From contig DATJXN010000129.1 in assembly GCA_035500095.1 (NCBI GenBank), forward strand, positions 1 through 64,000: a DNA stretch of 64,000 nucleotides. Direction: 5' to 3'. The position numbers and the translations under genes are program-made. Position 1 is the first letter of the stretch. Every line of letters starts with the position of its first letter. Source of the DNA: Candidatus Binataceae bacterium (GTDB lineage Bacteria; Desulfobacterota; Binatia; Binatales; Binataceae). The notes beneath the pieces were generated by a model that did not search any database, was not told where the DNA came from, and worked only from the letters and a program-made list of their open reading frames with translations. Positions 1 through 64,000 of this stretch are shown one piece after another.

Positions 1-845
1 TCACCACCCCAGCCGAAATGCAGTGCCGCTCCGACGCGATTCGCCGGGCGGGTAAGCGCATCGCTTTCATCCCCACGATGGGGTTTCTCCACGAAGGGCA
101 TCTCAGCCTGATGCGCGAGGGCCGGGGCCGCGCCGAAGTGGTGGTGGCGTCGATTTTCGTCAACCCCACCCAGTTCGGGCCCAACGAGGATTTCGGCCGC
201 TATCCGCGGGCCTTCGAGCGCGATTGCGAATTGATGAAGGACGTGCCGGTCGACTTCGTCTTCGCGCCGGAGCCCGAGGCGATGTATCCGGCGGGCGCGC
301 AGACCTGGGTCGAGGCGGCGGAAATCACCAGGGGACTTTGCGGAGCGCATCGTCCGGGCCACTTCCGCGGCGTTACCACGGTGGTCGCCAAGCTGTTCAA
401 CATCGTCAAGCCGCACTACGCGATGTTCGGCGAGAAGGATTTTCAGCAGTTGCGCGCGATTCAGCGGATGGTCAGGGACCTCAATTTCGATCTCGAGATC
501 GTTCCGATGCCGACCGTGCGCGAGGCCGACGGGCTCGCGATGAGCTCGCGCAACGCCTATCTCTCGCCCGAGGAGCGCAAGCGCGGCCTCAGCCTGAGCG
601 CGGCGCTCGAGGCCGCGCGCCGCGAGTTCGCCGCCGGCGCTCGCGATCCGCGAGTGCTGGTGCGTACCGCATGCGCGGTGCTGAGCGCGACGGCTGAGCT
701 GAGGATCGAGTACATCGAGGCGGTCGATTCCGAGTCGCTCGCGGAGATTTCGCATATCGAACGGCCCGTGGTGCTCGCGATTGCGGCGCACGTGGGCAAA
801 ACGCGGCTTATCGACAACGCGGTGTTTTCGCCACTTCCGGCGTAG
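1..845 (+). CDS. panC: pantothenate synthetase (5' end outside window)
   Basis: Pantothenate synthetase joins D-pantoate and beta-alanine with ATP in the cytoplasm (coenzyme A pathway). The N-terminal block FIPTMGFLHEGHLSL is the nucleotidyltransferase-fold signature with the HxGH ATP-binding motif, and the later segments FVNPTQFGPNEDF, KLFNIVKPHYAMFGEKD and MSSRNAYLS are classic PanC blocks. The frame is open to the first bases (T-T-P-A-E before the ATG at 18), and known PanC proteins have more residues before the GKR segment, so I think the true start lies upstream of the window and ATG 18 is internal. The protein ends normally at 845. The family call is secure. Confidence 0.95.
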   Translation, partial: TTPAEMQCRSDAIRRAGKRIAFIPTMGFLHEGHLSLMREGRGRAEVVVASIFVNPTQFGPNEDFGRYPRAFERDCELMKDVPVDFVFAPEPEAMYPAGAQTWVEAAEITRGLCGAHRPGHFRGVTTVVAKLFNIVKPHYAMFGEKDFQQLRAIQRMVRDLNFDLEIVPMPTVREADGLAMSSRNAYLSPEERKRGLSLSAALEAARREFAAGARDPRVLVRTACAVLSATAELRIEYIEAVDSESLAEISHIERPVVLAIAAHVGKTRLIDNAVFSPLPA

Positions 846-59196: not shown

Positions 59197-59397
59197 CTAG
59201 GCATGCTGATGCATGTGCATCGGGCATTGCGCGCCATTGCTGCCGCCCTTGCAGCACGCCTGCGACGGACAGCAGGCCTGCTTGCTCTGGCAGCAGGCGG
59301 GCGTATCGGCGATACGGCTGGCCAGCACGTAGCCGCTCGTTCCCAAAACACCAACCAACACCATCGCGGCCAATCCTTTAAGCGATATCAGTTTCAT
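59197..59397 (-). CDS. small Cys/His-rich exported protein
   Basis: A 66-residue protein: hydrophobic signal region (about residues 5-27) followed by clustered cysteines (ACCQSKQACCPSQACCKGG) and a His/Met tail (CPMHMHQHA). ATG 59397 has AAGGGAG upstream, so it looks expressed. Seven cysteines in about 25 residues plus the His/Met tail suggest binding of copper, zinc or mercury in the periplasm. No named family recognised. It is convergent with zwf and divergent from the thiolase gene. Confidence 0.7.
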   Translation of the reverse strand: MKLISLKGLAAMVLVGVLGTSGYVLASRIADTPACCQSKQACCPSQACCKGGSNGAQCPMHMHQHA

Positions 59398-59653
59398 TGC
59401 CGGCTCCCTTTCCAGGTGGGTTTCGCTTGTGACCTTCCGCTCTCCCGCGCAGACGATTATAGGCTCGCGCCAGACTTACGGCAAAGGCGCGACGTGCGAG
59501 TTCCCGTCGCCGCCACCTGTGGCGCTTACGGCGGAGCGTGCGCTAACGTAGGGGGCCAGACGACCGAGGGCTCCTACATCATATTCGACAGCGCCATTTA
59601 CGCCCCGCCGCCCTCGGCTATTGCGCGGCGCGACTCAGCTAAGGAGATCAACG

Positions 59654-60892
59654 ATGGCCAACTCACAGAGCGTCTATATCCTAGGCGGCGGACAGAGCGA
59701 CTTCGCGCGCAACTGGAACAAAGAGGGTAAGCATTTCACCGAGGTGATGCGCGAGACAGTTGGCGGCGCGATGGAGCAGGCGCGAATCGAGCCGCGCGAC
59801 ATCCAGACCGCGCACGTGGGCAACTTCGCTGCCGAGCTCTACGGCAAGCAAGGCCAGCTGAACGCCTTTTTTCTCGAGATCGATCCGCAATTCTCGGGAT
59901 TGCCGACCTCCCGTCACGAGGCCGCCTGCGCCTCCGGTTCGATCGCGATTCTCGCCGCCGCGGCCGATATCGAAGCGGGTCATTACGACGTCGCCGGGGT
60001 GGTCGGTCTGGAGCAGATGAAAACGGTCGATTCCGCGACCGGCGGCGACTTCCTCGGCACCGCTGGATGGTACGAGCGCGAGTGCAAGGGCGTCGCCTAT
60101 CCTTTCCCGGCGCTTTTTGGGCGTCTCGGCGACGAATACGACCGGCGCTACGGACTCAAGGACGAGTACCTGGCACGCATCTCGTCGATCAACTTCGCCA
60201 ACGCGCGGCACAACCCTCTCGCGCAGACGCGCGGCTGGCCCAACGCCGAGACCGACGCGCAGCAGGCGAAGAAATTCGAGCAGCCGATCGCGGGCCGCAT
60301 CAGGGTGCGCGATTGCTCGCAGGTGACCGACGGCGTCGCGGTGCTGTTCCTGGCTTCGGAGAAATTCGCCGCCGAGTACGCGAAGCGGCGCAATCTGAAG
60401 CTCGAGGATCTTCCGCGTATCCTCGGCTGGGGCCATCACACGGCGCGGATCGAGTTCGACAAGAAGATCGCCGAAAGCCGCGAGGACCTCTACGTGCTGC
60501 CGCATACACGCGAGGCTATCGTCGACGCCTTTCGCCGCGCCGGCCTCTCCGGCGTGGCGGAGGTCTCGGGGATCGAGACGCACGATTGCTTCACGACCTC
60601 GGAATACATGGCGATCGATCATTTCGGCATCACCAAACCCGGAGAGTCGTGGAAGGCGATCGAGGAAGGCGCGATCGAGATGGGCGGCAAGATCCCGATC
60701 AATCCGAGCGGCGGACTTATCGGCGTGGGCCATCCGGTCGGCGGCACCGGCGTGCGCCAGATGCTCGATTGCTGGCGCCAGGTGAGCGGCGCGGCGGGCG
60801 ACTACCAGGTCGAAGGCGCGGAACGCTTCGCGATGCTGAATATCGGCGGGAGCGGCACGACCAGCTGCGCCTTCGTGGTGGGCAAGCACTAG
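59654..60892 (+). CDS. thiolase-fold acyl-CoA acetyltransferase (SCP-x/AcAT type)
   Basis: A 412-residue thiolase-like protein. The nucleophile is Cys92 (EAACASGSIAIL), the conserved NPSGGLIGVGHPVGGTG block has the catalytic His, and SGTTSCAFV gives the second Cys. AAGGAG lies a few bases before ATG 59654. SCP-x-type thiolases cleave 3-ketoacyl-CoA with branched or sterol-like chains; the exact substrate is unknown. It begins the three-gene unit with the thioredoxin-fusion and selenoprotein genes. Confidence 0.87.
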   Translation: MANSQSVYILGGGQSDFARNWNKEGKHFTEVMRETVGGAMEQARIEPRDIQTAHVGNFAAELYGKQGQLNAFFLEIDPQFSGLPTSRHEAACASGSIAILAAAADIEAGHYDVAGVVGLEQMKTVDSATGGDFLGTAGWYERECKGVAYPFPALFGRLGDEYDRRYGLKDEYLARISSINFANARHNPLAQTRGWPNAETDAQQAKKFEQPIAGRIRVRDCSQVTDGVAVLFLASEKFAAEYAKRRNLKLEDLPRILGWGHHTARIEFDKKIAESREDLYVLPHTREAIVDAFRRAGLSGVAEVSGIETHDCFTTSEYMAIDHFGITKPGESWKAIEEGAIEMGGKIPINPSGGLIGVGHPVGGTGVRQMLDCWRQVSGAAGDYQVEGAERFAMLNIGGSGTTSCAFVVGKH

Positions 60893-60918: not shown

Positions 60919-62508
60919 ATGCCGGAATCGCTGCCGAGCTTCTCTCGCGTCGATCAGCACGGCTGGACGTTTTCTTTTCCCGACCATCCAGCGCTGCTCT
61001 GCTTCGTCAAGGAGGATTGCCCGACGTGCGGGATGACGATGCCGCTTATCGAGGCGGCGGCGGTGGCGTTTCAGGGCGAGCTTGACGTGCTCGCGATCGG
61101 GCAGGACGCGGCGGGCAACGCCCGGCTGCTGGAGCGGCACAAGCTTAACGTGCCGATGATCGACGACTCGGACCTCAAACTCTCCTACGCCTTCAACGTC
61201 GAGATCGTTCCGACAGTGGTTCTCGCCGACGCCGGCGGCGCTCAACTCCGCCGTTTCGAAGGCTTCGACAAGTCCGACTGGCAAAGCGTGATCTCCGAGG
61301 CCGCGCACCTCGCCGGCGGCCCGGAGCTCCGTATCGACTGGAGCGCGTACCCGCAGTCGCGCCCCGGATGCGGCTCGAAGTCGGTCGAGCCCGGCGTGGC
61401 CGAGCGGCTCGCCGCCGAAGCCTCGGGCTCGCCTCTGCGCGCGCGGCAGATCGAGCTTGGCGCCGAGGAAGACCCGTTCGAATTCATGTTCGAGCGCGGA
61501 CTCACCGACGGTCTGCCCGTGATCCCGCCCACGCCCGAGCGTGTGATGCGGATGCTCGCAGGGACGCGGCGCGATTCTCAGGAAGTGATCGCGACCGTGC
61601 CGCCGAACCTCGCGCCGCTCACGATCGAGAAGGTCGCGGCCAACGCGGTGATGGCCGGATGCCGGCCCGAGTATCTGCCGGTCGTGATCGCGGTGCTCGA
61701 AGCGGTCTGCACCGATGAGTTCAATATTCACGGCGTGATGGCGACGACGGCCGGCGCCACGCCGACGATCGTCGTCAACGGCCCGATCCGCCATCGGCTC
61801 GGGATGAACATGAAAATCGGCGTGCTCGGCTCGGGCAATCGCGCCAACGCGACGATCGGGCGCGCGGTCAAGCTCGCGTTGCGCAATGTCGGCGGTGCGC
61901 GCCCGGGCGAGATCGAACGCACGGCGCTTGGCGGCCCGGGCAAGTACACCGCCTGCTATCCCGAATGGGAGGAGCGGAGCCCGTGGGAGCCGCTCCACGT
62001 CGAGCGCGGGTTTCGCCGCGAGGACAGCGTGGTCACGGTCTTCGGACTAGAGCCGGCGCCGCGGCTGATTGTCGATCAGCTCTCGCGCACCGCCCACGCC
62101 CTTGCCGGGAGCCTCGGCATGGCGCTCGAGAGCTGCTGGCATCCCAAGCTCCACGCCTACGGCGAAATCCTGCTGGTCATCTCGCCCGAGCACGCCGACA
62201 CCATCGCGCGCGACGGCTGGAGCAAGGCGCAGGTGCGCAATCGGATCCAGGAGGCGAGCGCGCGGCCGATCCGCGAGCTTTTGCCCGGCATCGACGCGGG
62301 CGAAGGGATGGCGCTCAGGCATTTCGGGCTCGCCAATCCGACTGCCGAACAGCTCGAACAGCGGATCCCCAAGTTCCGCAAGGCCGAGAATATCAATATC
62401 ATGGTGGCCGGCGGCGAAGCGGGAAAGTTTTCGAGCGTGTTCGGAGGATGGTTCAGCGGACCGATGGGCTCGATCAGCGTGAGCCGGAAAATCGAGGAGG
62501 TGCCATGA
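60919..62508 (+). CDS. thioredoxin-domain protein fused to large domain of unknown function
   Basis: A 529-residue protein. Residues 1 to about 130 look like a thioredoxin fold with a redox pair in EDCPTCGMTMPLIE (Cys34, Cys37) and the cis-Pro area VEIVPTVVLADAGG. From about residue 145 (SRPGCGSKSVEPG) a second domain of roughly 380 residues begins, with GLTDGLPVIPPTPERV and ATTAGATPTIVVNGPIRHR, not recognised as a named enzyme. ATG 60919 is 26 bases after the thiolase stop. The stop overlaps the next start (ATGA), so it is coupled to the selenoprotein gene: the CPTC pair may reduce the selenoprotein. Function unknown. Confidence 0.75.
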   Translation: MPESLPSFSRVDQHGWTFSFPDHPALLCFVKEDCPTCGMTMPLIEAAAVAFQGELDVLAIGQDAAGNARLLERHKLNVPMIDDSDLKLSYAFNVEIVPTVVLADAGGAQLRRFEGFDKSDWQSVISEAAHLAGGPELRIDWSAYPQSRPGCGSKSVEPGVAERLAAEASGSPLRARQIELGAEEDPFEFMFERGLTDGLPVIPPTPERVMRMLAGTRRDSQEVIATVPPNLAPLTIEKVAANAVMAGCRPEYLPVVIAVLEAVCTDEFNIHGVMATTAGATPTIVVNGPIRHRLGMNMKIGVLGSGNRANATIGRAVKLALRNVGGARPGEIERTALGGPGKYTACYPEWEERSPWEPLHVERGFRREDSVVTVFGLEPAPRLIVDQLSRTAHALAGSLGMALESCWHPKLHAYGEILLVISPEHADTIARDGWSKAQVRNRIQEASARPIRELLPGIDAGEGMALRHFGLANPTAEQLEQRIPKFRKAENINIMVAGGEAGKFSSVFGGWFSGPMGSISVSRKIEEVP

Positions 62509-63023
62509 CTCGAATCGTTGACCCGACCGACGAACGCGCACCGCTAAGCCGCACGCTCGCGCAGCGTCCGCGGGAGTTGCGCGGCGTGGCGGCGCTGCTC
62601 GATATCGCCAAGCCGCGCGGTGACGTCCTGCTCGACCGGATCGAGCAGCGGCTCGCCGAGCGCGCGCCCGGCATTACGCTTAAGCGCTATCGCAAACCGA
62701 CTTTCGCCAAGCCGGCGCCCGACGACTTGCGCCGCAGGATCGCCGAGGAGAGCGACTTCGTCATCGAAGCGCTCGCCGATTGAGGGTCGTGTACAACGTG
62801 CAGTGTGCACGACTCCGTCTGGTTTGAAGTGAACGGCAAGCCTTCGGTGGTGGTGGCGTCGTCGACGTTCGTCGATGCGGCCGAGGCGCAGGCGCGCGCG
62901 CTCGGATTGCCGGAGGTCCGGCGCATCTTCGTGCCACATCCGATCCAGGACGCGACCGACGATGAAATGCGGGCCAAGGCCGACGCGATCGTCGAGGGGC
63001 TGATCGAGGCGCTGACGAGCTAG
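62505..63023 (+). CDS. UGSC-family selenoprotein with in-frame TGA (Sec93)
   Basis: Read through the TGA at 62781-62783, the frame gives 172 residues with selenocysteine at position 93, in EALAD-U-GSCTTCSVHD. Before it lies a charged helical region (RPRELRGVAALLDIAKPRGD); after it, 79 more residues to TAG 63021-63023 (SVWFEVNGKPSVVVAS, VRRIFVPHP), without other stops in that frame. The downstream frame starts no good ATG of its own, and U-G-S-C followed by T-x-C is the mark of the UGSC selenoprotein family known from metagenomes. A hairpin follows the TGA directly. Sec would form a redox pair with Cys96 or Cys99. SelA/B/C/D are not in the window. ATGA overlap couples it to the upstream gene. 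Confidence 0.85.
62784..62815 (+). promoter_or_regulatory. SECIS-like hairpin after the TGA codon
   Basis: Directly after the TGA, GTCGTG (62786-62791) pairs with CACGAC (62808-62813), extended inward by T-G, A-T, C-G and A-T pairs and outward by G-T and G-C, giving a 12-bp stem around the eight-base loop ACGTGCAG. Bacterial SECIS elements are short hairpins just 3' of the UGA within the coding region, with a G early in the loop; here G62798 lies 15 bases after the TGA, at the short edge of the usual range. Confidence 0.65.
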
Positions 63024-63083
63024 CGCGGCGCGGCGGCGAGAGGAGGGCGCGGGCATTGCACGGCGCCCGGGTAGGATCCGAAG

Positions 63084-64000
63084 ATGGCGAGGAGCAAGCC
63101 GCAGCTATTCGATACGGCCGATCCCGAATCAAACCTGCCGCCGGCGCTGGAGGCCGAGTGGTCGTCGGAAGGCGGGCTCCCGCCGGCGCCCAATCTGCGC
63201 CCGTTGCTTGCCCCGCGGCCTCATCGAATCATCGTCAAGGCGGTCAACTGGCTCGGCGACCTCGTGATGAGCGGGCCGGCTCTGCACGCGATTCACGACG
63301 CGTTTCCCGGCGCGCATCTCGCCGTGCTCGTGCGCAGCGAGCTTGCCAGCTTCTTCGACGGCGCGATGTGGGTCAACGAGGTTATTCGGTATCGGGTGCG
63401 CGGCGGCTTGACCGGGCTTGGCGACCAGCTTTCGATAATCAGGCGGATTCGCGCCGGGCACTTCGATCTCGCGGTGGTTTTTCCCAACAGCTTCCGCTCG
63501 GCGATGTGGATGGCGATGGCCGGAGTGCTGCGGCGCGCCGGCTATGCGGGCGACCGCCGCAGCTTCATGCTGACCCACAAGGTCGCGCCGCGCGCCGAGG
63601 TCGAGAACGCACACCAGGTCCATCACTGGCTCACGATGGTCGCTGAGACGATTGGCGCGAAGGGCGACGCCGAGGCCTACCATCTCGACGTCAACCAGCA
63701 GAGCCGCGAGCGGATACGCGCGTGGCTCGCCAACCGCCGCTTGCGCCCGGAGCGCCGGTTGATCGCGCTTGCGCCCGTGGCGGCCTACGGGCCGGCCAAG
63801 GAATGGCCGGTTGAGCGCTACGCCGCGCTGATCGATCTTTTGGCTGAGCGGCATGGCGCGGAATGCGTGCTGGTCGGCGGGATCGACGATCGCACCCGGT
63901 GCCTGGAGATCGCGCAGCGGTGCAAAAACGCCGTGCTCGTCGCCGCCGCCGAGACGACCGTGGGCGAACTTATCGCGCTGCTCTCACTGTGCCACGGCTT
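63084..64000 (+). CDS. waaF: heptosyltransferase II-like GT9 glycosyltransferase (3' end outside window)
   Basis: From ATG 63084 the frame stays open to the last base. After a 45-residue Pro/Glu-rich leader come IIVKAVNWLGDLVMSGPALHAI, VFPNSFRSAMWM, APVAAYGPAKEWPVERYAAL and VGGIDDR, matching ADP-heptose:LPS heptosyltransferases (GT9), which build the LPS inner core. The truncated C terminus and the family's range (WaaF, WaaC) make the precise acceptor uncertain, but heptosyltransferase II is the best fit. About 305 residues are visible. Confidence 0.88.
   Translation, partial: MARSKPQLFDTADPESNLPPALEAEWSSEGGLPPAPNLRPLLAPRPHRIIVKAVNWLGDLVMSGPALHAIHDAFPGAHLAVLVRSELASFFDGAMWVNEVIRYRVRGGLTGLGDQLSIIRRIRAGHFDLAVVFPNSFRSAMWMAMAGVLRRAGYAGDRRSFMLTHKVAPRAEVENAHQVHHWLTMVAETIGAKGDAEAYHLDVNQQSRERIRAWLANRRLRPERRLIALAPVAAYGPAKEWPVERYAALIDLLAERHGAECVLVGGIDDRTRCLEIAQRCKNAVLVAAAETTVGELIALLSLCHG

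Follow-up and report, generated by a model that had tools for sequence, protein, structure and literature searches.

The 64,000-nucleotide stretch of DNA analysed here (hereafter the window) codes on its forward strand for a UGSC-family selenoprotein whose start overlaps the end of a gene for a fusion of a thioredoxin-like domain with a large conserved domain, here termed X. Our overall reading, to which we assign a probability of roughly 60%, is that the UGSC protein, decoded with selenocysteine (Sec), and the thioredoxin–X protein constitute one enzyme of the GrdB/PrdB type, including the mechanism set out below. The two elements for which evidence is newly provided, namely the kinship of the active half to glycine and proline reductases and the near-constant single partner, make the function of this family testable.

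The UGSC reading frame and its SECIS

The UGSC gene (62505..63023, + strand) starts with the ATG at 62505 and ends with the TAG at 63021–63023, with a single internal TGA at 62781–62783 (codon 93) flanked by EALAD-U-GSCTTCSVHD in the read-through translation. The 172-aa product matches PF24696 'UGSC' over residues 4–171 (163 bits versus a cut-off of 25, E 9.6e-48) and NF041046 'UGSC family (seleno)protein' (160.4 bits versus a curated cut-off of 125); it is thus an unexceptional member of a family known since 2008. When each half was searched alone, residues 1–92 before the TGA aligned with positions 1–92 of PF24696 (E 5.6e-16) and codon 91 onward with positions 92–171 (E 1.1e-25). Further, comparison with two same-genus relatives placed 23 of 32 and 21 of 26 of the differences after the TGA at third codon positions, with synonymous codon changes exceeding the non-synonymous ones. 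The halves therefore match adjoining stretches of one profile and the differences past the TGA are mostly at third positions, which establishes that the gene is coding on both sides of that codon. These results bear out an initial sequence-only reading, which had recognized the open frame through codon 93, the protein-like sequence beyond it and the membership in the UGSC family.

UGSC genes were found in 67 of 96 related genomes, with up to 12 per genome, and nearly all of them have exactly one in-frame TGA. In an alignment of 52 proteins two positions are invariant, Phe122 and residue 93 (always Sec or Cys), while Gly94, Ser95, Cys96, Asp103, His145 and Pro146 vary very little. The homologues thus align U or C at residue 93, as the sequence-only reading required: most use TGA, others are Cys forms (nine of which were examined), and in a single one, from Candidatus Blastococcus massiliensis, the codon is TAG. 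The last agrees with the use of Sec-TAG by Geodermatophilaceae, UGSC genes included, reported in PMC5330540. Compared with the rest of the family, nothing essential differs in the window: the full-length match, UGSC motif, in-frame TGA and SECIS are held in common, many relatives being likewise TGA-coded, and the partner is a separate overlapping gene with an N-terminal thioredoxin domain.

The 12-bp hairpin that had been noticed directly after the TGA is present exactly as described (62784..62815; arms 62784–62795 and 62804–62815), with a folding z of −2.88 relative to shuffles within the window. However, it is not the conserved SECIS: only 12 of 135 homologues preserve its seven core pairs in full, whereas in 129 of 135 TGA homologues from many phyla a shorter nested stem of 5 bp is completely paired. 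This conserved core (62797..62811) comprises the stem 62797–62801/62807–62811 and the apical loop AGUGU at 62802–62806, and competes with the 12-bp hairpin for one shared 3′ arm. Across the 135 TGA homologues, positions +14..18 and +24..28 after the TGA are paired in 96–100% of cases, and the loop-closing pair covaries, with C–G swapping with G–C. As the loop starts with A-G-U, the seventh codon after the TGA is AGT wherever it specifies Ser (118 of 118 Ser cases, a count among related sequences spanning several phyla rather than a probability), compared to a background of 7% among the Ser codons of the adjacent X genes; the nine Cys forms that were examined never have AGT at this position. 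An Rfam scan of 62000–63300 returned nothing above chance and no SECIS match. The comparative evidence strongly supports a putative SECIS after the TGA.

The host genome, a 3.62 Mb draft that is 95% complete, codes for the full machinery for Sec insertion, with all four components that had been proposed as a check on the read-through found above their cut-offs: selA (561 bits versus 268), selB (377 versus 242), selD (385 versus 125; itself with one in-frame TGA) and selC, the tRNA-Sec (68.6 versus 47). We infer that the TGA is almost certainly translated in vivo as Sec by SelB using the SECIS core at 62797–62811. Under the default genetic code the region does yield two ORFs, as foreseen in the sequence-only reading, and the record of a Paracoccus ferrooxidans plasmid annotates exactly such a split UGSC, as would be expected if these were two separate genes or a pseudogene, with the TGA either ending translation or stemming from an error in the assembly. 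Nevertheless, the retention of the TGA in more than 130 homologues, with Cys or TAG in others, the constraint on the SECIS, the full Sec machinery and the purifying pattern on either side of the TGA render that explanation hardly credible.

The thioredoxin–X partner and its gene neighbourhood

The partner gene (60919..62508, + strand; start inferred from the frame) codes for a 529-aa protein and shares a 4-nt ATGA overlap with the UGSC start. Its N-terminal part is a thioredoxin-like domain (60919..61340; PF00578, E 4.5e-6) with a CPTC motif at 61018–61029, a fusion that is also found in relatives. This is followed by domain X of ~370 aa (61378..62505), which almost always accompanies UGSC, as its neighbour or fused to it, and matched no Pfam or NCBIfam family in profile searches. 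Thus, the coupling to a thioredoxin-like protein proposed in the sequence-only reading holds as regards the PF00578 domain upstream, but the main partner is the much larger, unrelated domain X situated C-terminal to it.

The pairing of UGSC and X is seen from both sides. An X gene accompanies UGSC on the same strand at 62 of 63 sites in relatives, in most cases overlapping it or lying no more than about 225 bp away; ten of the sites show UGSC and X fused in one frame, one has X 1.2 kb away and one is without X. The host genome itself has one X and one UGSC. Conversely, when named genomes were scanned with X alone, 77 of the best 80 of 584 loci were found to hold a UGSC gene, which in 75 of these 80 contains one TGA. 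The same best 80 loci include Gammaproteobacteria, Alphaproteobacteria, Chloroflexi, Actinomycetota and Acidobacteria; X is also present on haloarchaeal plasmids, where it adjoins a Cys-form UGSC. Compact sel islands are another feature of this set of 80: 18 loci contain both selA and selB, tRNA-Sec was detected in all 13 of those 18 that were scanned for tRNA genes, selD is additionally present in five loci, and the order selA, selB, tRNA-Sec, Trx-X, UGSC is seen in eleven.

Of 140 loci, about 50 gave a thioredoxin-like match, which in most cases lies directly upstream of X and is fused to it, as in the window; 50 background loci retrieved for unrelated purposes gave none. Other arrangements include trxB-trxA-X-UGSC in Arthrobacter and X-UGSC-trxB in Roseovarius. 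The 2008 GOS paper (PMC2398784) describes a fusion of UGSC to a conserved 'Unknown_1' domain, which we liken to X, fused to UGSC at ten sites, solely by this shared fusion. A natural UGSC–X fusion was modelled as one body with a pTM of 0.92, which suggests a defined interface between the two. A Foldseek search of PDB with the whole fusion gave no match at E ≤ 0.001, its best 50 being mostly short Rossmann/flavodoxin-type matches, and sequence searches of PDB with UGSC and X gave nothing convincing apart from thioredoxin.

Upstream of the partner gene in the window lies a thiolase gene (59621..60892, + strand; NF004936, acetyl-CoA acetyltransferase), which is kept in three close relatives and is possibly associated with the UGSC locus. 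Across loci, the neighbours include solute-binding proteins, CoA transferases, amidohydrolases, thiolases, lyases, MmgE/PrpD and RraA-like proteins. In a search for a common pathway, the sel genes were the sole clearly recurring neighbours; thiolase, amidohydrolase and solute-binding proteins recurred weakly. The neighbours of UGSC–X fit small-molecule catabolism, but as they vary widely apart from the sel genes, no substrate can be named from context. One relative from the same class (G041) has 12 UGSC matches distributed over several contigs, several of them beside solute-binding-protein genes, suggesting that its copies are substrate-specific paralogues. In Sporomusa termitida and Vibrio europaeus plasmids, Met replaces Sec in UGSC–X fusions (GDMGTS and ADMGTS; loci L227, 5320–7044, and L230, 5362–7047), which are found near genes for aconitase X and DUF126. 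Thus, part of the superfamily either works without the redox residue or has lost it. On the opposite strand of the window, at 59197–59397, lies a Cys-rich ORF of 66 aa. Its N terminus is signal-like and motifs containing CC recur in it; the product may be a small protein that binds metal.

Fold and kinship to GrdB and PrdB

An AlphaFold2 model of UGSC (pLDDT 95) shows five parallel strands alternating with helices and places Sec93 at the start of a helix. Foldseek ranks flavodoxin-like proteins highest among the PDB structures (E 2.7e-5, TM about 0.5), and no thioredoxin is found among the best 50 matches to the model. The Sec half of UGSC hence models as a flavodoxin-like rather than a thioredoxin fold. 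The latter, suggested for UGSC in the 2008 GOS paper (PMC2398784), is at odds with the topology of the model and with the flavodoxin-like matches.

We then used hhalign to compare the UGSC profile with a profile of 26 proteins of the GRDB family, whose sequences were continued beyond the in-frame TGA. This returned a match with a probability of 96.6% and E 5.9e-10, in which Sec is aligned to Sec and to whose extent, about 83 columns, the homology is limited. With both Sec columns masked, the match persisted at E 1.6e-8, as against 0.018 for the best of 40 column shuffles and 0.06 for the reversed profile. These profile comparisons show homology between the Sec half of UGSC and the Sec-bearing C-terminal region of the GrdB/PrdB reductases. 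As full-length GRDB proteins from related genomes (L107–L112, L203–L208) made clear, PF07355, the Pfam model for GRDB, breaks off immediately in front of the Sec codon and leaves out the catalytic C-terminal region. For this reason UGSC does not match the Pfam model as it stands, and reading past the TGA restored the match; this is perhaps also why the link was overlooked earlier. A Pfam search of UGSC found no PF07355 match at the family threshold, and the long N-terminal part of GrdB is lacking.

The two systems are alike in other respects too: U-G-x-C stands over U-G-x-C in the C-terminal Sec region; GrdB/PrdB use thioredoxin or a thiol reductant, while the UGSC partner has a fused thioredoxin; and the Sec subunit is encoded beside a large partner, GrdE adjoining GrdB in relatives as X adjoins UGSC. 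The partner X, however, is not GrdE-like (probability 0.2%, E 0.28 in profile comparison with GrdE) and displays no homology to GrdB, including its N-terminal part. The host genome lacks GrdE, and the sole PrdB-like protein in it is a short one; the analysis identified no pyruvoyl precursor, and PDB offered no solved relative of GrdB. Passages on UGSC in the indexed open-access papers that were searched (subscription journals fall outside this set) state neither the GrdB kinship nor the near-constant partner nor the sel islands. Together, the GrdB relationship, the steady partner, the built-in thioredoxin and the compact sel islands turn an 'unknown redox protein' into an enzyme that can be expressed and has a predicted reaction type.

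Proposed function and its alternatives

Glycine reductase binds its substrate through protein B (GrdB + GrdE) and splits off ammonia by Sec-dependent chemistry, with thioredoxin as the reductant; proline reductase cleaves the ring C–N bond, and a GrdB-like pair has been proposed to cleave the C–F bond of fluoroacetate (PMC10298544, PMC10838667). The likely function of UGSC is a thioredoxin-driven, Sec-based reductive bond cleavage. The UGSC protein, translationally coupled to the thioredoxin–X fusion and probably forming one enzyme with it, would provide the GrdB/PrdB-type catalytic domain. Based on the homology of the Sec region to GrdB, we propose that the selenolate at the helix start would attack an activated carbon–heteroatom bond of a small, probably carboxylate-type substrate. 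Cys96 of the UxxC motif would resolve the adduct to a selenenylsulfide, which the fused thioredoxin domain would then reduce back, with X supplying the substrate-binding scaffold in place of GrdE/PrdA. As X has no homology to GrdE or to the N-terminal part of GrdB, substrate activation would have to differ from that in glycine reductase.

The suggestion made for the family in 2008, a thioredoxin-like fold and a general oxidoreductase of the thiol-disulfide or peroxide type, would accord with the U-x-x-C motif and the fused thioredoxin. Yet the high-confidence model has a five-stranded parallel flavodoxin-like sheet with flavodoxin-like proteins as its best PDB matches, the profile homology is to GrdB, and a plain thiol oxidoreductase needs no near-constant partner of 370 aa; we accordingly regard this as improbable. 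Slightly better placed, though still unlikely, is the reading that in catabolic pathways Sec helps to activate the substrate, acting as ligand or nucleophile in a reaction of the transferase, isomerase or lyase-like kind rather than in bond cleavage. This would accord with the lyases, CoA transferases, MmgE/PrpD, RraA-like and solute-binding proteins among the neighbours, and with the branch featuring Met in place of Sec, but the thioredoxin fusions, the adjacent trxB genes and the near-invariant second Cys point instead to a redox cycle. A broader proposition, which we advance only tentatively, is that UGSC and X form a widespread two-component reductase across many groups, including aerobes, combining GrdB-type selenolate chemistry with X in place of GrdE, and with paralogues, as many as 12 in one genome, that have diversified in substrate. 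If so, thioredoxin-dependent reductive cleavage of C–N, C–S or C–halogen bonds, a chemistry described to date chiefly in anaerobes, would extend to these organisms.

The host genome contains a second selenoprotein family: a short GRDB/PrdB-like protein on contig C145 (about 65908–66270 plus downstream; L214) has an in-frame TGA in the motif VPA-U-PVCHQSVGLI, and relatives of it are found in many related genomes. Standard annotation breaks UGSC genes in two; on the Paracoccus ferrooxidans plasmid pFER4, a TGA-coded UGSC (L225, 5381–5950) is annotated as two hypothetical proteins, with selB located 4.4 kb downstream of the split gene.
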